This document shows, piece by piece, positions 1,978 through 63,875 of a DNA stretch of 64,000 nt (position 1 is its first letter; each line of letters starts with the position of its first letter). A model generated the notes under the pieces. That model was not told the origin of the DNA, ran no database searches, and saw only the letters and a program-made list of their open reading frames with translations. A program made the translations under genes and the position numbers. The stretch is from Candidatus Reidiella endopervernicosa (lineage in GTDB: Bacteria > Pseudomonadota > Gammaproteobacteria > GCF-013343005): NCBI RefSeq assembly GCF_013343005.1, contig NZ_CP054491.1:2400501-2464500 (forward strand). Reading direction: 5' to 3'.

Positions 1978-3225
1978 ATGTACGAATTCAGCCTGATTTT
2001 CATCTTCTTCCTTTTCCTCTCACTCTTTGTAGACATCGCACTACTGCTTCGCAATATCACCCATATCGTCAAACGACGCAGCCAGGTTCCCGATGCCTTT
2101 AAAGGTCAAATCGATCTCGATTCTCATCAGAAGGCTGCAGACTACACGGTGGCTCGCAATCGTATATCCAGCTATGAACTCTTCTTTGGCACCCTGCTAA
2201 TCCTGATCTGGACCTTTGGTGGTGGACTTGAACTGCTCGATACTCTCTGGCGCTCACTAGCGCTTAATGGACTCGTCACAGGTGTGGGTCTATTGATCAG
2301 CATGGCGTTGATCGCTTCACTGATTGAACTACCAATCAGTTACTACAAAACCTTCAAGCTCGAGCAACGCTTCGGCTTTAACAAAAGCACGCCGAAACTC
2401 TTCTTTACCGATCTGATCAAACAGAGCCTTTTGATGCTGGTAATTGGTGCACCACTCGCCTGGGTGGCACTCTGGCTGATGGATTCAGCCGGTCAGTATT
2501 GGTGGCTCTACCTGTGGGCAGTCTGGATGGGTTTTGGACTATTGATGATGTGGGCCTACCCGACCTTCATCGCACCACTATTCAACAAGTTTGAACCACT
2601 TGAAGAAGGCGAGCTTCGCGATCGCATCGAGGCGCTACTGGAACGCTGCGGCTTTGCCAGCAATGGCATCTTTATCATGGACGGTTCCAAACGCAGCAGC
2701 CACGGTAACGCCTACTTCACCGGCCTCGGAAAACAGAAACGCATCGTCTTTTTCGACACCCTGATCGAATCACTCACCCCTGAGGAGATCGAGGGCGTAC
2801 TCGCCCACGAGCTGGGGCACTTCCGCATGCACCACATCCCCAAACGTATTCTCTCCTCAGCGGTTATCAGCCTTGGCGCGCTGGCACTGCTCGGCTGGTT
2901 GGTGAGCGCCTCCTGGTTCTACAGTGATCTGGGCGTCTCTACTCCTTCGAACCATGTAGCGCTGGCGCTGTTCATGCTGGTTTCGCCTGCCTTCGGCTTC
3001 TTCCTCACCCCACTCTTCTCCTGGTTCTCCCGCAAGCATGAGTATGAGGCCGATGACTTCGCCGCTGCGCAGAGCACGCCTGAACATCTGATCTCCGCGC
3101 TGGTCAAACTCTACAAGGAGAATGCGAGTACGTTGACCCCCGATCCCCTCTACTCGGCATTCCACGACTCCCATCCACCAGCCCCGCTGCGGGTGGCCCA
3201 CTTATCGGCTAAAATCAGCTCATAG
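1978..3225 (+). CDS. M48 family membrane metalloprotease (Ste24/HtpX-like)
   Basis: An integral-membrane zinc protease of about 415 residues. The N-terminal half has several hydrophobic helices typical of the CAAX-protease N-terminal domain. The zinc site is HELGH at residues 277-281, and the third ligand Glu lies in KHEYEADDFAAA. The family processes membrane or prenylated substrates in eukaryotes; the bacterial members act in membrane protein quality control, so the substrate is not known. The frame is open from TTG 1975, but ATG 1978 is the more natural start. It is followed at 31 bp by the cytochrome gene and looks like the first gene of an operon running to 7.8 kb. Confidence 0.85.
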   Translation: MYEFSLIFIFFLFLSLFVDIALLLRNITHIVKRRSQVPDAFKGQIDLDSHQKAADYTVARNRISSYELFFGTLLILIWTFGGGLELLDTLWRSLALNGLVTGVGLLISMALIASLIELPISYYKTFKLEQRFGFNKSTPKLFFTDLIKQSLLMLVIGAPLAWVALWLMDSAGQYWWLYLWAVWMGFGLLMMWAYPTFIAPLFNKFEPLEEGELRDRIEALLERCGFASNGIFIMDGSKRSSHGNAYFTGLGKQKRIVFFDTLIESLTPEEIEGVLAHELGHFRMHHIPKRILSSAVISLGALALLGWLVSASWFYSDLGVSTPSNHVALALFMLVSPAFGFFLTPLFSWFSRKHEYEADDFAAAQSTPEHLISALVKLYKENASTLTPDPLYSAFHDSHPPAPLRVAHLSAKISS

Positions 3226-3255
3226 TTATCCGACAGAAACAGGAAGGTATTCCAG

Positions 3256-3531
3256 ATGCGCTACTTAATCGCTATTGCCGTTGCCGCTACCGCTCTTCAG
3301 ATTGGCACTGCCAATGCCGCCGATCTCAGTGAGGGCAAGGAGCTACACAACGAGAACTGTGTGCGCTGTCACGGTAGTGAGATCTATACCCGTACAGATC
3401 GCCGCGTAACCAATCGCCCCGGGCTTACCACTCAGGTACAGCGCTGTGAACTGGCCCTCGGCTTGAAGTGGTTTGAGGAAGATGTAGAGATGGTTTCTGA
3501 CTTTCTCAACCACAATTTCTACAAGTTCTAG
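3256..3531 (+). CDS. small periplasmic c-type cytochrome
   Basis: A 91-residue precursor with an N-terminal signal peptide ending near ANAADL and one haem-attachment site CVRCH (Cys35, Cys38, His39). A methionine in DVEMVSDFLNHNF near the C-terminus may be the sixth ligand. This is the size of a small monohaem class I cytochrome used as a periplasmic electron carrier. A ribosome binding site (AGGAAG) lies just before ATG 3256. It lies between the M48 protease and phhB, close enough (30 bp and 5 bp) to be co-transcribed. The physiological partner cannot be told from the sequence. Confidence 0.8.
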   Translation: MRYLIAIAVAATALQIGTANAADLSEGKELHNENCVRCHGSEIYTRTDRRVTNRPGLTTQVQRCELALGLKWFEEDVEMVSDFLNHNFYKF

Positions 3532-3536
3532 ACCCT

Positions 3537-3890
3537 ATGAGTACTCTCCTGCAGCGTCACTGCCAGTCTCTTAGCAGCGACACACCACCGCTCGACGAAG
3601 AGCTGATTAGTCGTCTGCAGCAGGAGATCGACACTGAGTGGCAACTGGATGAGAGCCTGAAGCAGATCAGTCGCACCTTACGTTTCAAGAATTACTACCA
3701 GACCATCGCCTTTGTAAACGGCGTCGCCTGGATCGCCCATCAACAAGACCACCACCCCGACCTTGAGGTGAGCTATAACCGCTGCCTGATCCACTTCTCA
3801 ACTCACAGCGTTGGTGGCCTCTCCGAGAATGACTTTATCTGTGCGGCGCAGATCGATGCGCTCTTTAACGGCGGGGATAACAACGTTTGA
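3537..3890 (+). CDS. phhB: pterin-4a-carbinolamine dehydratase
   Basis: A 117-residue protein matching 4a-hydroxytetrahydrobiopterin dehydratase. It dehydrates the carbinolamine formed by aromatic amino-acid hydroxylases; some members assist molybdopterin metabolism. The signature HQQDHHPDLEVSYNRC carries the catalytic His-His-Pro motif, followed by STHSVGGLSENDF as in the family. It starts 5 bp after the cytochrome stop, so translation is probably coupled. No phenylalanine hydroxylase is present nearby. Confidence 0.9.
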   Translation: MSTLLQRHCQSLSSDTPPLDEELISRLQQEIDTEWQLDESLKQISRTLRFKNYYQTIAFVNGVAWIAHQQDHHPDLEVSYNRCLIHFSTHSVGGLSENDFICAAQIDALFNGGDNNV

Positions 3891-3927
3891 TTAATCCCCG
3901 TAGTTTCCTCTCTACCGTTCTTCTCTG

Positions 3928-4938
3928 ATGGCAAAACGCAGACTCACCAAACAGCAACGCGAACGCATCCGTGCCATTCAGGCTCGGCGCAAGTCACGCG
4001 TTGAAGAACGCTGCGCTGAAGAGGCCGATAAACTGGCCGACACCATGCTGGGCGCAGAACAGCGCGGCACCATAATCGCTCACTACGGTAAGGCCATCGC
4101 GGTTGAAGATGACAAGAAGCAGCTTCACCGCTGCCAAATGCGGCAGAACATGGAATCCCTGGTCGTTGGCGACCGCATAGTATGGCAGGCCAGTGAACAG
4201 GGCGATGGGGTGGTCACCGCCCTACTACCGCGAGACTCACTACTATCACGCCCCGTCAGTAGTGGCGAGGTGAAACCGGTTGCTGCCAATATCGATCAAA
4301 TCGTGGTCGTCATCGCCACCGCACCTGAGCCCAGCGAAGGACTTCTTGATCGTTATCTGGTTGCGGCCGAACTGAGTGAGATCCACCCGATTATTCTGGT
4401 CAACAAGATCGATCTGCTGAACTCAAATGAGTTGGTTGCATTGAAAGAACGCCTCTCAATCTATAAAAACATCGGTTATGAGCTACGTTTTGCCAGCACC
4501 CACAGCGAGCATGGGCTCGATGAGTTAAATAGTCAGCTTGAAGGTAAAACAAGCGTACTGGTGGGTCAGTCGGGAGTCGGCAAGTCATCGTTAGTGAAAG
4601 CGATAATGCCTGACCTGGATATTCGCATCGGCGCCATCTCCGAACAGAGTGGTCTCGGCCGTCATACCACCACCACATCGATGTTCTACCATCTACCCCA
4701 AAGCGGCGCCCTGATCGACTCACCCGGTGTGCGGGACTTCAGCCTCTGGGAGAGCGATCCGACTCGGATCATCCACGGCTTTCCGGAGTTCTCCCCCTAT
4801 CTGGGTCACTGCCGTTTTAATAACTGCAGTCATATCGTCGAACCGGGCTGCGCCCTGAAAGAGGCGATCGAGGATAAGCGGATCAACGAAGCTCGCCTGA
4901 AGAGTTTTCACGCCATCTGTGCTGGTGGCGACAAGTAG
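3928..4938 (+). CDS. rsgA: ribosome small-subunit GTPase RsgA
   Basis: A 336-residue circularly permuted GTPase that acts in the late maturation of the 30S subunit. An OB-fold region (about residues 45-100) is followed by the permuted GTPase motifs: G4 LVNKID at 157-162, G1 GQSGVGKSS at 213-221, and G3 DSPGVRDF. The C-terminal zinc knuckle is CRFNNCSHIVEPGC. All hallmark residues are present. It is encoded 37 bp after phhB, and the next gene begins directly after its stop codon. The association of orn, an M48 protease and rsgA is familiar from other gammaproteobacteria (from memory). Confidence 0.95.
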   Translation: MAKRRLTKQQRERIRAIQARRKSRVEERCAEEADKLADTMLGAEQRGTIIAHYGKAIAVEDDKKQLHRCQMRQNMESLVVGDRIVWQASEQGDGVVTALLPRDSLLSRPVSSGEVKPVAANIDQIVVVIATAPEPSEGLLDRYLVAAELSEIHPIILVNKIDLLNSNELVALKERLSIYKNIGYELRFASTHSEHGLDELNSQLEGKTSVLVGQSGVGKSSLVKAIMPDLDIRIGAISEQSGLGRHTTTTSMFYHLPQSGALIDSPGVRDFSLWESDPTRIIHGFPEFSPYLGHCRFNNCSHIVEPGCALKEAIEDKRINEARLKSFHAICAGGDK

Positions 4939-7849: not shown

Positions 7850-10800
7850 CTAGATAGGATCACTACAGACTTCACCACTGATCTCACTGCCATCAACATC
7901 GATGCTGGTGTTATCGGGCGTGGAATCGACTTCACATACAATTGCACCATCGTCGACAGCATCTTCCTCAGTAATATTGGTATTACTCAGCTCCACATCC
8001 TGGAATGTATCACTGAAGCTGCCATCATTATTTACATAGACGGAAGGACCATAGACGCCAGACTCCAATGTATCGCCGCTGAAGCTTACATCCTGATCCA
8101 CCAGACCATAATCACCATCTGCATCGATTCTTACCGGGATGCCATAACCCTCTCCTGCGTACTCATCAAAGCCAATCATATTATCACTCAGTGTGACATC
8201 CTGGGTTACATTGCCGCCATAGGGGGCATCGCCACCATCCGCAACAATATTGAGTGAGTACGTGCCATAGACGGGATCATGAAGTCTGGAACCAGAGGTA
8301 ATTGTATTGCCTGACAGGGTGGCTGTTTGATTAGTGACACCATAATCGTCAGCAACAGCAATCAGTCCGTTACCATACGCACTATCGATAACATTATCGG
8401 TCAAAGTGACCGTCTGATGCGATGTAGAGCCATAGTCACTACTGACTACGAAGTAGGCGCCAACAGCATTAATATTATCGAGTCCCTCATACTTGGAACC
8501 GATAATACTGCTATCCATGGTGACGGTCTGTTCAGTAAATCCGGTCAGATCACCATACTCCACCTCACCAACAATCGAACCGAGAGAGTAAGGAGACTCT
8601 TCTAAATATTTACCTGCCGATGCCAGCAACCCGATACCGTAGCCGTCGATTCGAGTTCCATTCTCGATGGTCAGATTCTGCTCAGTGTAGCCACCTTCGC
8701 CTGCAGAGGCATTCGCCAGTACACCAACGCCATAACCAAATACAACAGAGTCATCCAGCGTGACATTCTGCGTTGATGAACTTCCATACTTGGAGAAGAC
8801 GGTGGTGGTCATACCAGAGAAGAAACCTGTGAACTGGTCATTCTCTGACATAATCGTCTGCGTGCTTACACCGTATCCGAAACTTTCGGTATGTGCATAG
8901 AGACCATGGGCGACTCCGTAGGCCATATTGTCAGACATCGTAATGGTCTGGGCCGATCCGTAACCCGAGCCCGCGTCGCCACCTACAGGTACCCCATCTT
9001 CCCATTCATCGAATGCGTCTCCAGCAAGGTTGACCGCCATCACAGGAACGCTGTAGGACAAGACAACATTACCATCAAGATTGACATTCTGTACGCCGTA
9101 GGACCCTTCATGCTGAGCATCGTTATAGGCCAACACTGCAGGATTATCAGTAACGATCCAGTTATCTTCAAGGCTGACCGTCTGAGTTGAGATAGCACCG
9201 TACTTGGCGCTATTACTCATAACAACGCCGTAACCCGGACCGTAGATGTAATTGTTGCTGAATGAGACCGTCTGTGACCGACGCACCTTCAGAACCCTCG
9301 GCGGTTAGAGCAATAGCAGTACCGTAGTCGTCTGTATAGAAGGTGTTATTGGCGATCGTGCCCATAGTCGACACATCAGGTCCGTCAGAGAAATTATGGA
9401 TCTCATTCCCGTAGTTCCTGCAGCACCACTGAAGATATTGTGGTGGATATTAAAATCTGTGTTGTTGTCAGCCAGAATTCCGGTTGCATTTCCGGCAAAC
9501 CTAAGGCCCATCACGGTATTGCTGTCATTCAGGCGACCACTAACACCGCCATCAAACTCGCCCCCTTCAAGGGTAGGCATGTTTGACGATCCCAGCTCCA
9601 GCGGATCGCCGTTACCATCGTCTAGAATGTCGAGTAACTGATAACCTTGGCCCCAGAGAGTCTGACCATATTCGAGGGAGAAGGATTCTGTGTCGTAGGG
9701 AGAACTACCTTCATGGACGAAAATCAGCGCCCCTTCACTACCCTCACAGCGACCGGCATTACAATCCCCTACCGTCTCGTAGGGATTCGTTGCGCTACCA
9801 TCACCACCACCTTCACCACCTTCATTGTCGATGTGAATTACATCATCACTGTAGAGGGTACCGAAGTTACGGTTTTCGCTATCGGTCGGACCGGTGGTGA
9901 CGATATCGGGATCGCGACGGACCGGATCCATCATGCGCTCATTGAGCGTACGAATAGCACTCTTGCTCTTGTGGCCGAAGCTGTAACGAATCTCAGCGTA
10001 GTACTGCACATCACGCTGATCATCCTGCTGCACCTGAAGACCGAAGATCAGATTCTGCTGCGGACGCACCTCAAGACGAGCCCCCATGCCGGTAACGGTG
10101 GTATCGAGGTCACCACTAAAACGATAACCGCTGAGGAAGGCGCGGGTTTCAACTTCGTTTGAAACAGGCAGCAGACGGCCAATCTCGATATCACCACCGG
10201 CCAGTGCTTCTTCGTAGACACCACTACGGATCAGCGATGTACCCGAGAACCAGCCCTTGTTACCGACACCGACATACTGTTTATCAGTGATTGGATAGTA
10301 GTAGTTGGCGCGGAAGTCCCAGGTGTCGCTCAGCGCCTCAAAACCAAAGGTCAACTGGTCATAGACCTCTTTACTGCGCGATTGACGCTTGTCGAATGAG
10401 CCGAAACCACCGATGAGCCAGTTGTTAGAATCGTTGAACCAGCGACGTCCCAGAGCGACGTTGGCTTCCATCGCTGACCGCCATGGAGAGCGAAGTGAGG
10501 GCGGTTAGTCCCCGATAGTCGACGCCGTCTGTATATTCGTAGTTGAGAGCGCGAGCGAACGACGGAGAAGATGCAGCAGCGGCTTTATGTCGGCGTAGAG
10601 TCACTGAGGGAGTTGTGTAGAGCCGCGAAGAGGTGATTACGCAACGAACGCAGGACGGTCGGGGCGCCGCAGGCATAAACGGTCGCGTTAAGTATTTGCC
10701 GCTTGCTTGGGCTTGATGCCCAAAACAAACTTTCGCAAAAATAGCGACTCCCCGGCGTTTCCTTGTTGGTCCCAGTGAACTTAATATCAGTAAACCAGAG

Positions 10801-11338: not shown

Positions 11339-13501
11339 CTATTCGACTGTATATCCAAGCGCTGAAATAGCCGGTTCGAGGATTGGAATAATCGCCTCAA
11401 GTTGTGTTCGGTAGTTCTTATATCGGAATACCGATCGGGTATAGAGCTTCTCAGTCACCTGCGCATAGCTGGCCGTTCTGGCAAAACGTTTGTTTTTGTG
11501 AAAATCGAGGCAGCGATCATCCCACTCCTCACCCACGAATTCGAGTAGCTCGCGGATATGGGTTTCAGGATTATCGACGATGTCCTCGTACCGAACCGCG
11601 TGATAACGCATATCGAGATTGGCTTTGTAATGCTCCACCAGCTCAAATATCAGAGCGTTCGGGGAGTCGCTATTTTGCGGAAGCTTGTTTTGGGCATCCA
11701 AGCCCAGCAAGCGGCAAATACTTAACGCGACCGTTTATGCCTACGGCGCCCCGACCGTCCTGCGTACGTTGCGTAATCACCTCTTCGCGGCTCTACACAA
11801 CTCCCTCAGTGACTCTACGCCGACATAAAGCCGCTGCTGCATCTTCTCCGTCGTTCGCTCACGCTCTCAACTACGAATAGGCAGACGGCGTCGACTATCG
11901 GGACTAACCGCCTTCGCTTCGCTATCCATGGCGGTCAGCGAGTGTTGTGCGGCACTAACCAGACTGTAGGAGCAGTTATCACCGTGAGTAAGATCATTGA
12001 AGTAGCTTGAAAGCACAACATCGAGAGGGTGACGAATCATATGAATAATGGGAGCGTCATTGAAGATCAGATTAATCAGTCCTAAATGCATCTCATTGAG
12101 CGGCATCTTGTCGGTAAAAAGCTTGGTCTCAGATCCAACGACACGATCGGCTATCGCATTGCAGAGGTAGTACTCACGCAGACTCTTCAACCCCGCCTCG
12201 AGCGTTGACTGATCCAGCTTGCTGAGAAATTCGGGAAACTCCCCTCTTCTTCCCAGCAGTGTGGGAGCTAGTTGACTGATACGCCACAAATAGGTGAGTT
12301 CATCGCCTGCCGAAATATTCGGGTGGGAAGTTAAGATCTGCTCGACCATCGTTGTACCAGAACGTGGGAAGCCAACAATAAACAGGGGGGTGGCCTGCTC
12401 TGGAACATCGGGATCATTACCGCAACACGGTATCTCCTTGATTCGACGTGCTTGATAAAACTGCTCGTAACGCTCAACAGTAGTTCGATTGGATGCGCTA
12501 TCGTATATCGACTCTCTCGTTTTCCGAATCAGGCTATTCGATTGATCGATGGCGACAAACGCCTCGTCAAATCTTTTCAATTTATCGAGCACCTGTGCGC
12601 GCTCATTGAAGTAACTAATTAAGAAAACATCCTTCTCATCCTCAACATCGATGCCATTAAGCTTTTCCAGAGCCTCCTCGAGTCGCCCTTCACGCCGCAA
12701 GAGTGTCGACTCAAGCACCAGACACGCCTTGTCAGAGGAGACCTTCCTTGCACGCTCTACAAGATCCCAGGCGGTATCAAAATGCTTCAATGACTCTTCA
12801 AGCTTGGCCCAGGTCAGTAGATTGACGGCGTTATCCGGTTCGAGCGCGACCGCTTTTCGATAGAAAGCGGCTGACTCCTCAATTTTTCCTTGCTGTTTTA
12901 GTACAAAGGCGAGATTGGCACAGAGCTTTCCAACCGGAATGTGTTGACTCAAGGCCTGTTTATAATGGTATTCAGCACCATCAGGCTGATGCATCTCTGC
13001 CAACACCATTCCCAGAACATTATGTGCTTGCGGATTGGTCGGGCGGATTCCAACAGCACGCCGAGCACAGCGTTCAGCCTCAGCATATCGTTTTAAATTA
13101 AGCAGCGTTTGGGCTGCATCACAGAGAAAGGCATCGCTTTCTGGACTGAGCATGACCAGCCTTGCCTGAAGATCGACCAGCTCATCACTGCTCACTTTGC
13201 GGGCTTTCATCAACCCAACCAACATACGCAGAGGGTCGATAGCCTTTGGAATTTCACTAATTAATTGTTGCAAACGATGCTCGGCAGCCTCTTGATCACC
13301 ACCATCCGTCAATGCCTTGGCAGCACTCATACCCTCTTCGATATGCTTGATGATGTGAGGTGGCACACCGCTTTTCTGAGACTGCTGATGTCGTGATACC
13401 GAACTGTTCTCTATCTCTCCACAGCAGTCTTTAAATTTCTTACCGCTACCGCATGGGCACGGACCATTTCTTGTTGGTGTTGTTGCTTGCTGCTGATTCA
13501 T
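11339..13501 (-). CDS. SEC-C / TPR / sulfotransferase protein, split by a repeat element
   Basis: The N-terminus has a SEC-C zinc motif (NGPCPCGSGKKFKDCC, residues about 12-27). A TPR array follows to about residue 300, then a sulfotransferase domain. The PAPS 5'-phosphosulfate loop is FIVGFPRSGTTMVEQ, and the 3'-phosphate motif is IHMIRHPLDVVLSSYF. The gene is cut by repeat copy 7 (antisense). With 11659-11940 removed the frame runs SAAQH-YALIFELVEHY and the protein has 626 residues, matching the conserved AA..Y tract of the family. As it stands, translation from 13501 ends inside the element and the last ~110 residues are separated. TPR-sulfotransferases sulfate peptides or glycans in other systems; the target here is unknown. 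Confidence 0.8.
11659..11940 (+). mobile_element. repeat element E283, copy 7 (inside sulfotransferase gene, antisense)
   Basis: A 282-bp copy beginning TCGGGGAGTCGC and ending GGTCAGCG on the plus strand, while its host gene is on the minus strand. The stem arms are type B (GCTTG with CAAGC), and so is the right end. Its antisense position is strong evidence against a purely RNA-splicing life cycle. Confidence 0.9.
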
Positions 13502-13521: not shown

Positions 13522-13804
13522 CGCTGACCGCCATGGAGAGCGAAGTGAGGGCGGTTAGTCCCCGATAGTCGACGCCGTCTGCCTATTCGTAGTTGAGAGC
13601 GCGAGCGAACGACGGAGAAGATGCAGCAGCGGCTTTATGTCGGCGTAGAGTCACTGAGGGAGTTGTGTAGAGCCGCGAAGAGGTGATTACGCAACGTACG
13701 CAGGACGGTCGGGGCGCCGCAGGCATAAACGGTCGCGTGAAGTTTTTGCTGTTTGCTTGGGCTTGGATGCCCAAAACAAACTTTCGCAAAATAGCGACTC
13801 CCGG
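13522..13804 (-). mobile_element. repeat element E283, copy 9 (intergenic)
   Basis: A 283-bp type A copy (GTTTG with CAAAC; right end type A) between the sulfotransferase start (13501) and the HIT gene end (13845). It lies in the same orientation as both genes. It occupies the space where the sulfotransferase promoter should be, so it may separate the gene from its promoter or provide one. Confidence 0.9.
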
Positions 13805-30820: not shown

Positions 30821-31103
30821 CCGGGGAGTCGCTATTTTTGCGAAAGTTTGTTTTGGGCATCCAAGCCCAAGCAAACAGCAAAACTTAACGCGACCGTTTA
30901 TGCCTGCGGCGCCCGACCGTCCTGCGTACGTTGCGTAATCACCTCTTCGAGGCTCTACACAACTCCCTCAGTGACTCTACGCCGACATAAAGCCGCTGCT
31001 GCATCTTCTTCGTCGTCCGCTCGCGCTCTCAACTACGAATATGCAGACGGCGTCGACTATCGGGGACTAACCGCCCTCACTTCGCTCTCCATGGCGGTCA
31101 GCG
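30821..31103 (+). mobile_element. repeat element E283, copy 1 (intergenic)
   Basis: A 283-bp type A copy (arms GTTTG with CAAAC; right end type A) between the PPC-like gene and the 43-aa membrane protein gene. It is antisense to both, and splits what looks like a minus-strand operon. Confidence 0.9.
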
Positions 31104-38837: not shown

Positions 38838-39743
38838 ATGGATATTATTCACCACACCTTCGCTGACCGCCATGGATAGCGAAGCGAAGGCGGTTAGTCC
38901 CCGATAGTCGACGCCGTCTGCCTATTCGTAGTTGAGGCGCGAGCGAACGACGAAGAAGATGCAGCAGCGGCTTTATGTCGGCGTAGAGTCACTGAGGAGT
39001 TGTGTAGAGCCGCGAAGAGGTGATTACGCAACGTACGCAGGACGTCGGGGCGCCGTAGGCATAAACGGTCGCGTTAAGTATTTGCCGCTTGCTTGGGCTT
39101 GGAGGCCCAAAACAAGCTTCCGCAAAATAGCGACTCCCGGAATTGGGACTGCTGGACTGCACAGCGCAATCGAGATGGATCATCTTTACAGCGGGCACTG
39201 CATTCCTTCTAGGCAGCCTCTTTCCAGATCTTGATGTGCTATTTATTGTTTTGGAAGACGCTTCTACCTCAAAACCACCAGTCCCTGACTCACTCAGTTC
39301 CACTTGCCCCATTCTACGCACTGCTTATCTGCACACCTCTAATTATCATTGAGGGTTATTCATGGTCAACTCTGCTTGCAGCTCTAGCTGGTATTGCTCT
39401 GCATATAGCGCTCGACTGGTGTAACACCTTCCGAATCGCCCTCTTTGCACCGTTTAGTTTTCGACGTTACAGCCTCGATGCTCTCTTCTTTATCGACGCA
39501 ACGACACTCTTTCTTACCGTGCTCTACTTTTCGACATCTTATCTCACAGCCCCCTACCTGTGGTTGTCAGCACTCTATGGCGTATTATTCACTCTCTACC
39601 TTGCCTTCAAGATCCTGCTACATAACAAGGTCATCAAAGTGAACAGGTCGATATCGCGATTCCATCAAGCCTCAACCCCTTCTCATTTTATCTATTTAAA
39701 GAAGATCGAAACCATCACCACAGTTACCACTACAACAGCCTGA
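38838..39743 (+). pseudogene. YdjM-like membrane-bound metal-dependent hydrolase, interrupted
   Basis: ATG 38838 gives MDIIHHT, which is cut by antisense repeat copy 10. Removing 38861-39140 yields MDIIHHTLIGTAGL, the family's N-terminal motif with its His ligands. After a +1 shift near 39.17 kb it reads TAGTAFLLGSLFPDLDVLF, a family core motif. After another near 39.25 kb it reads THSVPLAPFYALLI, LALAGIALHIALDWCNTFRI and SLDALFFIDATTLF. Several helices follow to the stop at 39743. Members are predicted membrane hydrolases (YdjM is LexA-regulated in E. coli). Without element and indels the protein has about 208 residues. Confidence 0.7.
38861..39140 (-). mobile_element. repeat element E283, copy 10 (inside YdjM-like gene, antisense)
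   Basis: A 280-bp type B copy (GCTTG with CAAGC; right end type B), on the opposite strand to its host gene. It sits eight codons into the gene. Excision of the pyrimidine plus element gives a perfect N-terminal motif, which fixes both element ends to the base. Confidence 0.92.
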
Positions 39744-41905: not shown

Positions 41906-42802
41906 TTGATACTTCACACATGATAAATCGTCGGCAGATCAACATCATAGAAAAAGATTACAAAACCACCTCAGATCAGAGGGGCTTCAAAGAGTGTATA
42001 CATTAAATCAACATGCGCTTAGCATTACGCAACAAAACAACTATGTATAAAAACCAGCATAGCGATGGAGAACAATAGGATGTTAAGTCACCTGATCACC
42101 GGGTACAGTTTGAATACTCAAGACCCTATTTCAACAATAATAAACTGGTTCACGGAGGTCCATTACCTACCCATTCTACTGTTTGGCCTCACTCTGATCG
42201 TGACAGCCATCCCCTCCCAAACTGAGGCAGGGGTTAATCTCAAGAACGGTAACTATTACATCACCTACACAGATATCGTTATTGCAGGACGTCACGATCT
42301 TGAGATCGAACGCACTTATAACAGTCGATCAGGTGGAAAGGGTATTTTCGGCATTGGCTGGGGTTCCGATTACGAGACCAGTCTCGCAGTACAGGGCGAT
42401 GGCACGGTTGTTATACGAGAAAATGGTTCTGGTGCCCGTACCGTATTCAGGCCACCTTCGCTAAGTAAAGAGGAGATTGAGAGTGCTGTTGATGCCATTA
42501 TTCAGGCCGCCAATCAAGACAACCGTTTCAGCAATGACCGTGAGCGCCGTGATGAACGCAACAAGCTCTTACGAGATGCAGAATTCCGTTCCAACGCATG
42601 GACTCGATATGTAGAAAAGGGCTGCTCAAACCACGCCACATTCCTATCGGGACTGTCTATCGAACCTCCACTCGTGGTCAACAGCGTCTACTACGCACAC
42701 ACGGGGTTTCAGCGCTCGAACAGTAGTCAGATCGATGAATTCGACACCTCAGGGGCGCTCACTCGGGTCAATCTCAGCAATGGCGAGAGCCAACACCTGT
42801 TT

Positions 42803-43087
42803 CCGGGGAGTCGCTATTTTTGCGAAAGTTTGTTTTGGGCATCCAAGCCCAAGCAAACAGCAAAAACTTAACGCGACCGTTTATGCCTTCGGCGCCCCGA
42901 CCGTCCTGCGTACGTTGCGTAATCACCTCTTCGCGGCTCTACACAACTCCCTCAGTGACTCTACGCCGACATAAAGCCGCTGCTGCATCTTCTTCGTCGT
43001 CCGCTCGCGCTCTCAACTACGAATATGCAGACGGCGTCGACTATCGCGGACTAACCGCCTTCGCTTCGCTATCCATGGCGGTCAGCG
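42803..43087 (+). mobile_element. repeat element E283, copy 2 (in RHS-like gene, sense)
   Basis: A 285-bp mosaic copy: the left hairpin is type A (GTTTG with CAAAC) while the right end is type B (TTCGCTTCGCTATCC). Excision joins CTGTTT to CGTGATGC and keeps the frame. Confidence 0.92.
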
Positions 43088-43844
43088 CGTGATGCAGAGG
43101 GCCAGCTCTCTCGCATAGTTGACAGTGAAGACCGAGAACTCCGTTTCTCCTTTAATAACAACGGTACAGTTTCCAGGATTGATGCAAGCGGAGGAAAAAG
43201 CGTTGTCTACCGGTATGACAACGATCGTCTTGTTCACACTCAGGATGCCGCTGGTAACTACTTCACCTATCGTTATGACGCTAACACCAACCTGATCACG
43301 ATTGGCTACGACGACGGTAGCAGCAGAATGATCACCTACACAGGAACCGAATTTGGTGGCAATCAGTTCGTACGCTCTGTAACAGAACGGGACAACATGA
43401 CCACCTGGTATAACTACGGCACCAACTACAGAAGAGACGATGGTGAGTCTTACTATACTGAGGTCATTAAAACCCGACCGGGAGCAAGAGTCGCACCAAC
43501 CGTTACGAATACACCATCGCCTATCGCGACGATGGCTCTACCTACACACAGCGCATACGTAACGATGTTAACGGCATCATTACTGACACCACCTACGACG
43601 AAAATGGCACACCTATCAACATTGAACGGGGTAACCGTGACACCCAATTCGAATATGATGATCGTGGTCGACTCACTCTAAAAATGATGGTGAGAGATAA
43701 CTCGACTTTTTATAACGACACCGTAAACAAGATATCGAAGGTCATTCAGTATCCCTCTGAATATCCTGAAAATGCGAAGATCTCTGTTTTTGAATACGAC
43801 GCAAATGGCAACCTCACCACAGCTTCAAACAGTGACGGTAAACG

Positions 43845-44126
43845 CCGGGGAGTCGCTATTTTTGCGAAAGTTTGTTTTGGGCATCCAAGCCCAAGCAAAC
43901 AGCAAAACTTCACGCGACCGTTTATGCCTGCGGCGCCCGACGTCCTGCGTTCGTTGCGTAATCACCTCTTCGCGGCTCTACACAACTCCCTCAGTGACTC
44001 TACGCCGACATAAAGCCGCTGCTGCATCTTCTCCGTCGTTCGCTCGCGCTCTCAACTACGAATAGGCAGACGGCGTCGACTATCGGGGACTAACCGCCCT
44101 CACTTCGCTCTCCATGGCGGTCAGCG
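43845..44126 (+). mobile_element. repeat element E283, copy 3 (in RHS-like gene, sense)
   Basis: A 282-bp type A copy at both ends, 757 bp after copy 2. Excision joins AAACG to CGTGCACC, giving DGKRVHLIYDDAG. Confidence 0.92.
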
Positions 44127-44316
44127 CGTGCACCTCATCTACGATGATGCGGGTCAGATCATAAGATCAGAATTTGAAGACACCGCATTGATCTTCACCT
44201 ATAACGCCATGAGCAAACCCATCACCATCGCTATCGAAGATGTCGGCTCGCTTTCTATCGCCTATGACGATGATGGTGAGATCACAAAAGTTGAAAGTTC
44301 CGATGGCAGTCAAGAG

Positions 44317-44599
44317 TCGGGGAGTCGCTATTTTGCGGAAGCTTGTTTTGGGCATCCAAGCCCAAGCAAGCGGCAAATACTAACGCGACCGTTTATGCCT
44401 ACGGCGCCCCGACCGTCCTGCGTACGTTGCGTAATCACCTCTTCGCGGCTCTACACAACTCCCTCACTGACTCTACGCCGACATAAAGCCGCTGCTGCAT
44501 CTTCTTCGTCGTTCGCTCGCGCTCTCAACTACGAATAGGCAGACGGCGTCGACTATCGCGGACTAACCGCCTTCGCTTCGCTATCCATGGCGGTCAGCG
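44317..44599 (+). mobile_element. repeat element E283, copy 4 (in RHS-like gene, sense)
   Basis: A 283-bp type B copy at both ends, 190 bp after copy 3. Stem arms are GTCGC (44324-44328) with GCGAC (44385-44389), GCTTG (44341-44345) with CAAGC (44367-44371) and TTGGGC with GCCCAA around a six-base loop. Excision joins CAAGAG to TTGGCA and leads to the natural stop at 44675. Confidence 0.92.
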
Positions 44600-44687
44600 T
44601 TGGCACTACTCATTACCCAATCATTCCAGGCACTCTTATCACTGGTGAAACCAGCTGGCGTTAACCTAAACCTGTAAGGACACCACT

Positions 44688-47600
44688 GTGACAACAAGAA
44701 TAACAACCACAATTACAAATAACAGACTGTTATCTGCAGCTATCGGACTAGGTTCACTACCGCTATGTAACCAGATCAGTGCCAACATTGATAACACCGA
44801 AACCCGCATGCAGTCTGATGTGGCGATATTGATTCAGGCTGGTCATGCGACTGCTCCTAATAAAGTTATCGCCTACCATAATAGTGACACCAGTCTTCTT
44901 GAAACCTGGGACGGTATTGATGTACGTCTATGGCGTCGTGCCATTACCGCTGAACCATGGCAAATACTACGTCACTGGAAAAGCCTGCCCGGGGAGTCGC
45001 TATTTTTGCGAGAGTTTGTTTTGGGCATCCAAGCCCAAGCAAACAGCAAAAACTTCACGCGACCGTTTATGCCTGCGGCGCCCGACGTCCTGCGTACGTT
45101 GCGTAATCACCTCTTCGCGGCTCTACACAACTCCCTCAGTGACTCTACGCCGACATAAAGCCGCTGCTGCATCTTCTCCGTCGTTCGCTCGCGCTTCCCA
45201 ACTACGAATAGGCAGACGGCGTCGACTATCGGGGACTAACCGCCCTCACTTCGCTCTCCATGGCGGTCAGCGAAGGCGCCTGGAGTCACTCCCACAAAGA
45301 TGTCACGCACTATTTCTCCAGCAACGTTGATGGTCACTTTGAACTGTTCGATGCAGAGAATTTTTCACGCCTCTATCGTGTAACAGCCAGAATGACACCT
45401 GACCATTCGCCTGACACTCACATCATTAAAGGTGATGGTGGTTCTTCCACCATTATCGCGATACCTGAACTCGATAACGAGGATAGTCCCTATCTCTCAC
45501 TCCATCTTGGAACAAAAGATGGCGGCTTCTCCATCTGGCAACCCTTTGCTGGTGAAAGAGAGGTCACTGATTTATTTGAGCTCGCTAATGGCCTATTCGC
45601 CGTTCGTCTCGACAAGAGTGATTGGCAGCTCATACGGGTTAAACCCAATGGAAGCAGCCAGAGAGTCACCCTACCCAGTCTACCCTCAGAAGTCCCAAAG
45701 ATACGCAAGCTAACAGATGGCCTATTTGGGGTCGCGATCTACGATGATGCACTACGTAGAGATAAAGACGACGGTGCACTCTGGCATCTATTCAGAATCA
45801 ACTCCGGCGATGAGATCGAGCCTCTACAGCTCTCGGGGTTTGAACCGGGTGCCGTGAAGAGTATTCACCGCATATCAGACCATCTCCTACGATTAACAAG
45901 TCGCACATCAGAAGATGTTGATCACTCATTGCAGACTCACTTCTACCGGATTAACGAATCGAAACAGGCTATTGAAGTTCATAAAGACATTACTGGTATC
46001 CCTGATTTGACTCGCAACTTCCGACTGCTGGCCAATGGTGAACTCGTCGGAGCGGCTGAAGTAGATGATGCAGATGGAGACGGTACACCGGGTGATTGGG
46101 TATGGCGCATGCGCGACTCACAGGGAGAGTGGCGCACACCTCAAGAGATACTCCCAGAACTCTCTGGAAAAATATGGACCATGAGCGACTGGCATGATGG
46201 TCAAGGGATCGGGGTTCAAACCATGACTGGCGAATCAGGCGCTGAATACACCTCCCAGTGGTATCTCCGAGACAACAAGACCAAGCAGTGGCACTCCGCC
46301 GAAAAAACGCTTCCCCTTCATGATGATCTGGCGATAGACACCATTCACGAGCGTCGAGATGGACTATTTGAAATTACCAGCATGCTTGATGCCGCCATTA
46401 AACCTGATTTCGACTCACCCGTACCCGTCGTTATTCAGAGCACCCACTGGGTGATGCGTGCAGAGGATGGAGAGTGGAACGACGTTAGGAGCATAGTTGC
46501 CAAGCACCGTCCTGGACTGGAAAAGAAAATCATCGCTGTCGATGCCCGAAGCAACGGCTTGATGGTCGATATCCAGCGTAACCATGATGAGACACCGATC
46601 AGACTGCTTTTTACAAGAACCGTGATCATCAGTGGGTCATGTTAGATAACACCATGCTCACAACAGCCTCAAGCTCAGCAGCATCTAATAAACGCCCCTT
46701 CAGCAAGGTCAAACATAGTGAGGTACTGGCCAGTGGGCGTCTAATCCTGTTGCATGAACAGGACGATGCCAACTTGGGATGGTGAGTGGAGATATCCAGT
46801 TACTGCAATCAGGTAGTGAGGGATGGCGGCTACTTCAAGCACAGAATGCACTCGGTGGTAAGGCGGCCCAGCTTCGCTATGACGCTGATCTTGGTCTGTT
46901 AGTACGCAGTAGCCATACAGGTGGCAGCAAGCATACTTCCGCCTCGATCACGATGGGTCATGGACTGACGTACGCACCCTAATTCCAAATGCCCCAGCAG
47001 GCTAGCATCAGCGTTCACCTTCGCCAACAGCCGCGGCGTGGCGATTAAAAGACACGATGCCAATGGTAATGGTCGTTTTGGCGAGTGGTATTTTACTATC
47101 CTGACAGTCAGGGCTGGCACGATATCTCCACCCTCCTCCCAAATGCATTTCCTGCTATTCAGACCATTATCGACGCCGGTGGACGTTCTACCATCAGCGT
47201 TCAGGAGGCGGGGATGCCAACCGTAACGAGATCGCCAACGAGTGGCACCACTACTACCGTAATGGAGATCAATGGATAGATCTTCAACAGCAGTGGCCGA
47301 ATTACCGGAAGAACTCTCCGAGCTACGTGTCTCAGCCGACGGTCGTGTCTTAACCGCTCGCGAAGAGTGGGACTCAAATGGCAACGGCGAGTCATTTGAG
47401 TTGATCGCAGCTATCTGGTCGGATAAACAACATCGATTTATTCCTGTCTCAACTCTAATAGAACAACCGCTACAACAGATCAGCGACATCCGCAGTCTGT
47501 GGAGTGGTCGTGGTATCGTATACAGGTAAGCAATGCAGAACAAACTAGTTCCATCACCTCAAGTACAACGGTTGCTGGTGGTCATAGATGGCTGCTCTAC

Positions 47601-51365: not shown

Positions 51366-51629
51366 GCCTATCCCTCATATTATTTGTTGACCAGTAATTC
51401 AGAACGATTATAACCATCAAACTCCCGACAAATACCACACAATATGGTAAGAAAAGTTAATATAAGGCATTGATATTGGACAGATATCGAATGAAATCGA
51501 TCCTCCCGGCTTACAGACTGTTCCAGGTGTAAATAGCCCTACAGAATTTGCAGTGATATATATTCTGAACTATGTAACATTAACGAGAATAACAACCAAT
51601 AACCAGCTGGAAAGGTGATTCGAATCGGT

Positions 51630-52751
51630 ATGCCGATCATGCGTAGATCACTCTGGAGCATCAGTTTTTTCATCCTGCTCCTATTCACTCTCTCTGCACA
51701 CAGCGTTGTAGCTGAAGACGCGCTCGGCAAAAAGCCCACACTACTGCGCATCGCAGGTTGGGACGTTTATGCCGACCCAATCAACAGGGGGAAGACTATT
51801 GGCTACAAATCAGCTGAACGGCAACTAGGCATCACGATTGAGTTCACTCCACTTAGCCATCTCGATGAGATCATCGATGCGGCAGAATCGAACAACGATT
51901 ACGACATTCTGATCATCTCGAATGAGGGGATCAAAATCCTCGGTGGCATGGGGCTGATATCACCACTCAGTCTTAGTCAAATTCCCAATTATCAGGATCT
52001 CCACCACAGTCTGCGCTATACCGAGTGGGGTCAGATAGAAAGCAAGACCTACGCCGTCCCGTGGGCCTGGGGCCCAACCGGGCTTCTCTATGACACAACG
52101 CAGACGGAAGAGCCTGAGAGCTGGAATATTCTCTGGGATGAGCGTTTCAGTGGCCAAATCTCGCTCTGGAACGATGTCTCCCTGATCTGGATAACCGCCC
52201 TTTCGCTTGGGTATGACAATGTCTACAACCTGACTCGTTTTCAGCTCGATAATGTGCGCAACAAATTGCTCAATCTAAATCAGAGAATATTCAGATATTA
52301 CGACGGTGAAGTCGATGCCATCGACTCCATCATCAATGGTGAAGCAGTTCTTTTGAATAGCTGGTTCGATCCATCCGCGCGCCTTCTTAAACATAAGCGA
52401 AACTTTAGAATGGCAATTCCAAAAGAGGGTGCCGTGGGTATGTTCGATAGCTATCTGATCAGTCGAAACAGCCGACAAAACGAGATCGCTCACCGTTTTA
52501 TCAACCATCAGCTATCACCGATCATTCAGCGAGAGATGGTACAAATTACCGGATTAGCCCCAGCCAACAATGAAACCATGGCTCTACTATCGGCTGATGA
52601 GATCCATGCTCTACACCTTGGGGAGACTGACTATTTCAATCGAATGATCCTCTGGGATGTAATGCCGAGAAAACAGCTCTACGAGGAGCTTCTAAGCGAA
52701 ATTCGAAGCGATTTTCAGGCACGCAAAAGTTCACTGAGTATCAAAAAGTGA
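51630..52751 (+). CDS. periplasmic ABC-type substrate-binding protein (PotD/polyamine-like)
   Basis: A signal peptide (WSISFFILLLFTLSAHSVVA) is followed by LLRIAGWDVYADP, DYDILIISNEGIKIL, YAVPWAWGPTGLLYDT, FSGQISLWNDVSLIWITAL and EAVLLNSWFDPS, the layout of spermidine/putrescine-type binding proteins. No permease or ATPase genes are adjacent. Its stop overlaps the GTG of the GGDEF-EAL gene by four bases, so it probably delivers a ligand signal to that enzyme's periplasmic domain. The frame is open from GTG 51615; ATG 51630 or 51639 are the likely starts. Confidence 0.85.
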   Translation: MPIMRRSLWSISFFILLLFTLSAHSVVAEDALGKKPTLLRIAGWDVYADPINRGKTIGYKSAERQLGITIEFTPLSHLDEIIDAAESNNDYDILIISNEGIKILGGMGLISPLSLSQIPNYQDLHHSLRYTEWGQIESKTYAVPWAWGPTGLLYDTTQTEEPESWNILWDERFSGQISLWNDVSLIWITALSLGYDNVYNLTRFQLDNVRNKLLNLNQRIFRYYDGEVDAIDSIINGEAVLLNSWFDPSARLLKHKRNFRMAIPKEGAVGMFDSYLISRNSRQNEIAHRFINHQLSPIIQREMVQITGLAPANNETMALLSADEIHALHLGETDYFNRMILWDVMPRKQLYEELLSEIRSDFQARKSSLSIKK

Positions 52752-55243
52752 AAAACCATACACATACGATCACTCTTATCGCCCTTATCGGCATCGTTGT
52801 GATCGTCGTGAGCAGTGTCACCATATTCAGATACATGGAAGAGTCACTGATCGAGCAACACCGTGAACAGTTCATTATTGACTCTACGGCTAAGCTGGAT
52901 GGTTTGGTCAACACTCTTGAAGAGCGTCGTTTTCACCTCAATGCCTTTACCCAGCTACCAACATTTAAATCATTACGCTTTCATCAACTCAGCCTCAATT
53001 ACGCGGCGATACGAGATGACCTACGACATCTGGAACTCTATTTTCTTGAGCTTCAACACCGTCAGCCCGATTTTCTCTCCGTCCACTACTTCAATAACGA
53101 GGGCACAGAACGATTTAGTGTCAAAAACGGCATTATTCAAAACCAGCTGGGGCGTATCGAACGCTTCGCCCCCTCCGGTTTTGCGGCCAAACTTCAGCAT
53201 GGTGAGCTACGTGTCACTCAGAGTAGCAATGAGGAGATCACCAGTTTGACCTGGTGGCTGCCGGTCTATAGCTCTATCAATCATCGTCTCGGCACCCTCT
53301 CCTTCACCTATAGTTTTAAACCCATCGCCAATGCATTGATAAATCTGGCACAGGAGGGCCGAAGCTGTTCAATATTGAGTGAAAAACAAGGCCGTCTATT
53401 ACTCTCATCGGAAGAAGTCGGAGATGATATAAAGCTGCGCTCCGGCAGTTGGTTTGTTAGCCGAGACCTGCCACTACCAGGAATTGACTGGCAGGCGACG
53501 CTCTATGCGCACAAAGATGAAATCCTGAAAAATGTCACCACATTTCGGCAAGTCGCGCTGTATGGACTAGCACCCCTGATCTCTCTGCTGCTGGTCTTTC
53601 TTATCATTATCTCAATTAAACGGCTGGAGGCGGAGCGTAAAATTCGCCATATGGCCTACTATGACGAATTGACCGGACTGGTTAATCGCAACCACTTTGA
53701 AGAACGTCTCATTCAGACCATCACCCATACGCAACAGACCGGCATCCACCATGCACTGCTCTACCTCGATCTGGATCAGTTCAAGGTAGTCAATGACACC
53801 TGCGGCCACCTGGCGGGAGATCATCTCCTCATCCAGCTCGGTGAACTACTGCAAAAGAAGACCCGTGAACACGATACTCTGGCTAGACTCGGCGGTGATG
53901 AGTTTGCAGTTCTGCTGGAGGACTGTCCCGAATCCAACGCCGTGCATATCGCAGATGAGATCCTCAAATCTGTCACCGAATTTAGATTTATCTGGGATGG
54001 AAAACCCTTCACCGTTGGCGTGAGTATCGGCATCGCATCTATTCATGACCGAGATCAGAGGCCACAGGATGTGATGAGTGCCGCCGATATGGCCTGTTAT
54101 ATGGCCAAAGAGCTGGGACGTAACCGCATTCATCTCTATACGGCAGATGATCTCGACCTCGCCCGTCGTCACGGCGAGATGCAGTGGGTCTCACGAATCA
54201 AACGCGCGCTTGAAGAGGAGAGTTTTTTTCTCGAGTGCCAACCGATCATCCCACTCGGCGATGAGGAGAGACCATCACTACGTTGGGAGATGTTAATCCG
54301 GCTACGCGAAGAGGAGAAGGTGATACTCCCTGGTGCCTTCATCGGCTCAGCCGAGCGGTATGGATTGATGCCAGATATCGATCGCTGGGTGATCGATACG
54401 GCTATCGAACTGCTCTCGACCTTCTATCACATCGGGGAGTCGCTATTTTGCGGAAGCTTGTTTTGGGCATCAAGCCCAAGCAAGCGGCAAATACTAACGC
54501 GACCGTTTATGCCTACGGCGCCCTCGACTGTCCTGCGTTCGTTGCGAATCACCTCTTCGCGGCTCTACACAACTCCTCACTGACTCTACGCCGACATAAA
54601 GCCGTTGCTGCATCTTCTTCGTCGTTCGCTCGCGCTCAACTACGAATAGGCAGACGGCGTCGACTATCGGGGACTAACCGCCTTCGCTTCGCTATCCATG
54701 GCGGTCAGCGCGGGTCAACTGGAACCGGGTAAACTGGTCTTCTTCATTAACATATCGGGCTGTACAATTAGCGAGAAATCACTCTTTAAACACATCAAAA
54801 AACAGCTCGCCCATCATCATGTTCCACCTCAGGCGGTCTGTTTTGAGATCACCGAAACGGCCGCAATTTCCAATCTGACCGATGCGGTAGAATTCATGGG
54901 ACAGCTACGCGAATTGGGCTGTGCGGTGGCACTCGACGATTTTGGCGCGGGTCTCTGCTCATTTACCTACCTTAAATCGATACCTGCCGACTACCTGAAG
55001 ATCGATGGCAGCTTCATTCAGCACATGCTCGAGCAACCGATGGATGCCGCCATCGTTGAGGTCATCAAATACATTGGCGATGCGGCATCACTCAAAACCA
55101 TCGCCGAGTTTGTCACCAGTGACAAGATCCGAATAGAACTTGAAGCGATCGGTATCAACTATGCACAGGGATTTGGTATCGAGCGTCCCGGTCCATTACA
55201 CAAGATGATCTCCAAGGTGCATGCAGACAAATTAAGTGACTGA
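52748..55243 (+). CDS. membrane GGDEF-EAL cyclic di-GMP enzyme, split by a repeat element
   Basis: Two membrane helices (LIALIGIVVIVVSSVTIF near the start; ALYGLAPLISLLLVFLIIIS near residue 285) flank a periplasmic sensor domain. The GGDEF domain has RLGGDEFAVLL (GGDEF at about residue 382) and intact nucleotide motifs, so cyclase activity is plausible. The EAL domain begins WEMLIRL (EML in place of EAL). After repeat copy 6 it continues FFINISG, FEITETAAISN, VALDDFGAGLCSFTYLKS and LKIDGSFI, which keep most metal-binding residues. Removing 54432-54710 gives FYHTGQLEPG and an intact 738-residue protein; as it stands, translation stops inside the element, leaving the GGDEF half and a separate EAL half. 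Confidence 0.88.
54432..54710 (+). mobile_element. repeat element E283, copy 6 (in GGDEF-EAL gene, sense)
   Basis: A 279-bp type B copy, the shortest, with several single-base gaps relative to the others. It begins TCGGGGAGTCGC and ends GGTCAGCG. Excision joins TATCACA to CGGGTCAA and restores the frame between the GGDEF and EAL halves. Confidence 0.92.
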
Positions 55244-63592: not shown

Positions 63593-63875
63593 CGCTGACC
63601 GCCATGGAGAGCGAAGTGAGGGCGGTTAGTCCCCGATAGTCGACGCCGTCTGCCTATTCGTAGTTGAGAGCGCGAGCGAACGACGAAGAAGATGCAGCAG
63701 CGGCTTTATGTCGGCGTAGAGTCACTGAGGGAGTTGTGTAGAGCCGCGAAGAGGTGATTACGCAACGTACGCAGGACGGTCGGGGCGCCGCAGGCATAAA
63801 CGGTCGCGTGAAGTATTTGCCGCTTGCTTGGGCTTGGATGCCCAAAACAAACTTTCGCAAAATAGCGACTCCCGG
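63593..63875 (-). mobile_element. repeat element E283, copy 11 (intergenic)
   Basis: A 283-bp copy with mixed stem arms (type A GTTTG, type B CAAGC) and a type A right end, between tadA and the gene starting at 63933. It lies in the divergent promoter region of the two genes. Confidence 0.9.

Follow-up and report, generated by a model that had tools for sequence, protein, structure and literature searches.

A GGDEF-EAL gene cut within its EAL domain by a high-copy element resembling non-autonomous IS200/IS605 transposons

Our results indicate that a GGDEF-EAL gene (52748-55243) was recently cut in its EAL domain, where a 279-nt element is inserted (54432-54710). About 350 copies of this element are present in the genome, and it would be of a non-autonomous, IS200/IS605-like kind. 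The phosphodiesterase would have been lost by the cut, while the cyclase was possibly kept. We assign this reading as a whole a probability of roughly 0.65. Positions refer to the window, the whole 64-kb stretch of DNA that was analysed, which belongs to a gammaproteobacterial genome of 3.45 Mb in a single contig. Eleven element copies lie within the window (Table 1), and a search of the genome with the element core, allowing up to 2 mismatches, gave 354 matches (170 forward, 184 reverse), compared to 0 for the reversed-pattern control.

Table 1. Coordinates of the interrupted gene, the element copies and the target in the window
Feature	Position	Strand	Basis
Solute-binding protein gene, upstream of the GGDEF-EAL gene	51615..52751	+	Pfam SBP_bac_6/8
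First ORF (611 aa): sensor part, full GGDEF, EAL stump; ends within the element	52748..54583	+	ORF, Pfam
GGDEF domain	53654..54127	+	Pfam residues 303-460, hand-converted
EAL domain, profile positions 3-78	54194..54424	+	Pfam residues 483-559, hand-converted
Element (YC-G run-AGTCGC ... TCAGCG), 279 nt	54432..54710	+	Ends from 68 copies
5' arm of covarying terminal stem (ACCGCC)	54677..54682	+	Covariation
3' arm of covarying terminal stem (GGCGGT)	54700..54705	+	Covariation
Second ORF (181 aa), opened by an ATG in the element end	54698..55243	+	ORF
Target NNNG, here CGGG	54711..54714	+	68 own and 28 foreign copies
EAL domain, profile positions 82-236	54725..55189	+	Pfam residues 10-164, hand-converted
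Element copy, sense inside an ORF	10472..10755	-
Element copy, antisense inside an ORF	11659..11940	+
Element copy	13522..13804	-
Element copy	30821..31103	+
Element copy	38861..39140	-
Element copy, sense in an RHS-like ORF	42803..43087	+
Element copy, same RHS-like region as 42803..43087	43845..44126	+
Element copy, same RHS-like region as 42803..43087	44317..44599	+
Element copy, sense in an ORF	44989..45272	+
Element copy	63593..63875	-

The interrupted GGDEF-EAL gene

The sequence-only reading had placed the element between the GGDEF and EAL halves of the protein. We rejected this location, as Pfam puts the insertion point within EAL itself (after profile position 78 and before 82), and the element splits the domain into parts scoring 36.9 and 132.6 bits. 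That translation ends inside the element was correctly read: the first ORF stops at the TGA at 54581-54583. The product, which had been described as GGDEF-only, indeed contains a complete GGDEF (profile 1-161), but it also retains one third of EAL as a stump. Exact deletion of the element in silico gave one ORF of 777 residues with GGDEF 1-161 and EAL 3-236 (177.9 bits, Pfam), in which the catalytic motifs were read by eye.

Relatives of the gene were taken from one scan of public genomes (572 found, 80 loci kept), and the comparison at the junction counted only those whose alignment spans it (98 loci). The scan gave one full-length relative, L073 (MAG RS_8_68), which aligns at 42% to residues 1-776 of the joined frame, with no gap at the insertion point. 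Its frame is open throughout, GGDEF and EAL are both complete, and the same solute-binding protein gene (59% identical) lies adjacent upstream. Since L073 is syntenic, uninterrupted and complete in both domains, the gene most likely encoded a normal bifunctional enzyme until the insertion, as had been proposed for the form without the element; the orthologue alignment that had been suggested as a check agrees. Domain order and gene pair are those of a bifunctional GGDEF-EAL enzyme with a partner solute-binding protein, as in L073, whereas in the present gene EAL is interrupted.

Because the element landed inside EAL, the phosphodiesterase half was very probably lost, a deduction from what is known of EAL domains. 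Thus, the description of the enzyme as switched off or split fits this half, and not the GGDEF half, which stays complete. We propose that a mobile element of non-autonomous type landed inside EAL recently on an evolutionary scale, and that a membrane-type protein with a complete GGDEF could still be made, perhaps as a diguanylate cyclase only; the predicted cyclase activity is thus possibly kept in the inserted form. Taken by itself, the c-di-GMP gene is a case of ordinary gene disruption with one activity lost.

Insertion without target duplication, directly 5' of NNNG

An anchor pattern found 69 copies with enough flanking sequence, of which one, without a 5' end, was dropped; a copy in locus L044, missed by this pattern, stands outside the resulting 68. 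Note that this is not a random set: it comprises the 11 copies of the window and, for the rest, mostly the best matches to the 54432 copy, plus some from the start of the plus-strand matches. Median identity among the 68 copies was 95%. The element begins with YC, followed by 2-5 G and AGTCGC, and ends with TCAGCG.

The element inserts without target duplication. When the flanks were joined exactly and an ORF of at least 200 nt was required on both sides, removal of the element restored the ORF in 33 of the 68 copies, compared to 6 and 4 when the right flank was shifted by 1 or 2 nt. For the ABC-transporter, RHS and EAL sites we considered by hand a 4-bp duplication and a 2-bp shared core, and rejected both; removal without duplication gave conserved protein lengths at these three sites.

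The target is simple. The element lies directly 5' of NNNG, the fourth base of the right flank being G in 65 of the 68 copies and in each of the 28 foreign elements whose 3' end could be placed. The foreign count leaves out L171 (no CAGCG end), L010 (same site as L009), the G248 copy in L195 (this genome being represented by L168), and L174, L176 and L177 (no 3' end). No clear motif was present in the left flank. In L054, an element itself harbours a second copy, whose insertion follows the same target rule, as read by eye.

There was no clear avoidance of ORFs by the copies, since the proportion passing the frame test is comparable to that of random points in the window (442 of 1000). The 33 copies in ORFs comprised 20 in sense and 13 in antisense orientation. 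At least two other GGDEF-type genes in this set carry antisense copies, one inside EAL at IDR^WVI (L072, G000:C1:721000-724500) and one inside GGDEF (L039, G000:C1:3179300-3181800). Further ORFs carrying the element, named by eye from their translations, were of chemotaxis, adenylate cyclase, ABC-transporter and RHS-like types; in the same inspection we noticed no interrupted gene that we would judge essential. The RHS-like region (42065-46645) was hit four times over about 2.5 kb, always in the same orientation, and a GAF/secretion-ATPase-like frame (named by eye; L053, G000:C1:2240800-2243300) holds three copies, remaining open as these are removed one by one.

The burst of the element is recent and the copies are young, because private changes per copy are few (mean 1.01, median 0; 3 in the 54432 copy). 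The shared variants, in turn, are heavily reshuffled among copies: 197 of 300 column pairs show all four combinations, suggesting that gene conversion has acted between copies. A 406-nt segment between two direct element copies occurs twice in the genome (L060, G000:C1:1663931-1664336; L061, G000:C1:1513600-1514006). The inner part is identical at 406 of 407 positions and the elements on either side match less closely (280/285 and 271/284), suggesting either exchange between elements or movement of the segment between two elements.

These observations bear on whether the insertion acts as a reversible switch, where precise excision in part of the population would toggle between the bifunctional enzyme and a cyclase-only protein. 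In favour of a switch, the insertion duplicated no target bases, so that the original gene would be regained on precise excision. The element resembles a class whose members excise precisely (IS608-type), and excision of the single-strand IS200/IS605 type is precise where studied. The flanking frames are also intact in nearly half of the copies. However, in copies so young intact frames are expected without excision and need no rescue; given the few private changes per copy, we rejected intact frames as proof of continued function. Moreover, the share of copies in ORFs fits unselected insertion, only the inserted state was seen in the host genome, and we found no enzyme able to move the element. 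We therefore consider the switch unlikely. In the portions of the literature that our search returned, there was no precedent for a c-di-GMP insertion switch of this kind.

Orientation, terminal hairpin and mode of movement

In the host genome, the orientation of the element follows the direction of replication. GC skew of the examined stretches changed sign near 0.56 Mb, going from minus to plus, and changed back near 2.3 Mb. Among the matches listed at places below 1.75 Mb (52 plus, 92 minus), 36 plus and 10 minus were on one side and 16 plus and 82 minus on the other (p = 7e-13 for the best of 60 scanned cuts, 9e-13 at 600 kb). In the 68 extracted copies, orientation agreed with fork direction in 57. 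The bias was similar in copies sense to an ORF (18/20), antisense (11/13) and outside ORFs (28/35), so gene direction is not the explanation. On the strand that serves as lagging-strand template, the target would read C-N-N-N followed by the element, with the C at -4. In a second host (G248; 30 copies listed, skew from 20 stretches), a weak trend in the same direction was counted by hand, with 13 plus and 3 minus on one arm and 9 plus and 5 minus on the other. In the available text of PMC5371812 the orientation of IS200/IS605 elements is reported to follow replication, and PMC6006769 is likewise cited for this.

Just before its 3' end the element carries a covarying terminal stem. In this stem 95.5% of 132 cells were paired, with 26 double changes and 0 single-sided ones, and the slid controls were all far lower. 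G-U steps are absent from it, which suggests that the covarying stem is a DNA hairpin. By DNA folding, the 3' end alone was no better than shuffles; the other end of the element gave z values of -2.4 and -1.9.

The element matched 25 of 369 sampled gammaproteobacterial genomes, that of the host included, and further copies were found in two methanotroph plasmids and two viral contigs; a phage collection that we searched gave no match. The 3' end is common to the family members. At G352:C13:12837-12999, two such ends are inverted relative to each other, with about 60 nt between them. On a Methylobacter plasmid (L183), a full element at 2500-2781 ends 69 nt before a TnpB gene (2851-3957). We considered TnpB as a partner and treated this adjacency as chance, because the gene is absent from the other element loci examined and from the host genome. 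No publication describing the element was found in the portions of the literature returned by our search.

As for the mobilising enzyme, there is no transposase inside the element, and a search of the host genome found no TnpB. The same genome contains three Y1 matches, two of them named as REP-associated, and one of these two intact (L154). An IS91-type Y2 search gave no match in the host genome, and none in the control genomes either.

Three known systems were compared with the element. With IS200/IS605 (IS608, ISDra2) and their non-autonomous derivatives it shares the absence of target duplication, a hairpin near one end (the covarying 3' stem), a fixed flanking target and an orientation that follows replication. 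Their target, however, is a fixed stretch of 4-5 nt 5' of the active strand, whereas in the element one of four positions is fixed, a single G at +4 that follows three free ones, which is looser than the known IS200/IS605 targets. Most element copies, moreover, have neither TnpA nor TnpB inside or close to them. IS200/IS605 elements have hairpins near both ends; in the element, covariation was shown at one end, the other giving the folding z values stated above.

With REP/RAYT (TnpAREP) the element has in common a high copy number and palindromic structure, and the intact RAYT (L154) is encoded in the host genome; for REP recognition we refer to the available text of PMC8266576. A REP, however, is a short palindrome, whereas the element is 280-300 nt long and lies in ORFs about as often as expected by chance. 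In a 22-sequence alignment, the GTAG found next to the REP palindrome is absent before the element stem, which is flanked by GGGGACTA and CAGCG. Like MITEs, the element is short, non-coding and present in many copies; unlike those derived from DDE transposons, it lacks both target duplication and terminal inverted repeats.

Taken together, the missing duplication, the hairpin at one end, the fixed base in the flank and the replication-set orientation argue for single-strand transposition, and the analogy points to an element behaving like a non-autonomous, IS200/IS605-like transposon. Since no partner enzyme was found, we do not claim membership of IS200/IS605. We propose that the element would move by single-stranded-DNA 'peel and paste' transposition of the IS200/IS605 type, with the enzyme acting in trans. 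It would insert directly 5' of NNNG without duplicating the target, with a DNA hairpin at one end, and fork direction would set its orientation.

Insertion through an RNA intermediate, by a retroelement or by reverse splicing, likewise leaves the target unduplicated and can follow replication. The variable 5' G run, together with the absence of duplication and the orientation bias, would fit this route. However, the covariation of the stem is DNA-like, and the reverse transcriptase search gave no match in the host genome, although the control genomes did match. We consider this route improbable, and prefer single-strand DNA transposition.

The second reading frame and the significance of the family

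The EAL half had also been proposed to begin at an internal start. An ATG within the final 13 nt of the element does open the second ORF, and it shares the frame of the remaining gene. The resulting piece, however, lacks the first third of EAL, and with it the ExL glutamate, a metal ligand of EAL, so it cannot be an independent phosphodiesterase. The inserted form thus has this glutamate and the remaining EAL catalytic residues on separate polypeptides, and a working EAL would require that the product of the second ORF pairs with that of the first. The in-frame ATG is what speaks for such a split enzyme. But the conserved end of the element supplies this ATG, whose in-frame position here is thus a one-in-three chance; there is no promoter-like site in 54300-54800, no Shine-Dalgarno-like sequence for the second ORF was seen by eye, and the cut falls inside the domain. 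We regard the split enzyme as highly improbable.

Removal of the element from the RNA, so that the full enzyme is made, is the least credible reading: exact removal restores the ORF and folding indicates that the element can form much RNA structure, but copies in ORFs are antisense as well as sense, the conserved stem has no G-U steps, and Rfam gave no match even at a permissive threshold. Group I and group II introns were rejected on the same grounds, no intron model matching and copies also being antisense in genes.

We favour the recent landing of a non-autonomous, IS200/IS605-like element in EAL. A more far-reaching and doubtful possibility is that the family represents an unnamed, widespread class of non-autonomous, single-stranded elements that follow a target rule of their own and both insert and excise precisely at replication forks. 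The approximately 350 insertions, of which about half lie in ORFs and several in c-di-GMP genes, would then in many cases be reversible across the population. The element family is of wider interest in that it combines one simple target rule with the absence of duplication and a record of replication direction. If the mobilising enzyme is found, the reversible interruption of many genes would become directly testable.
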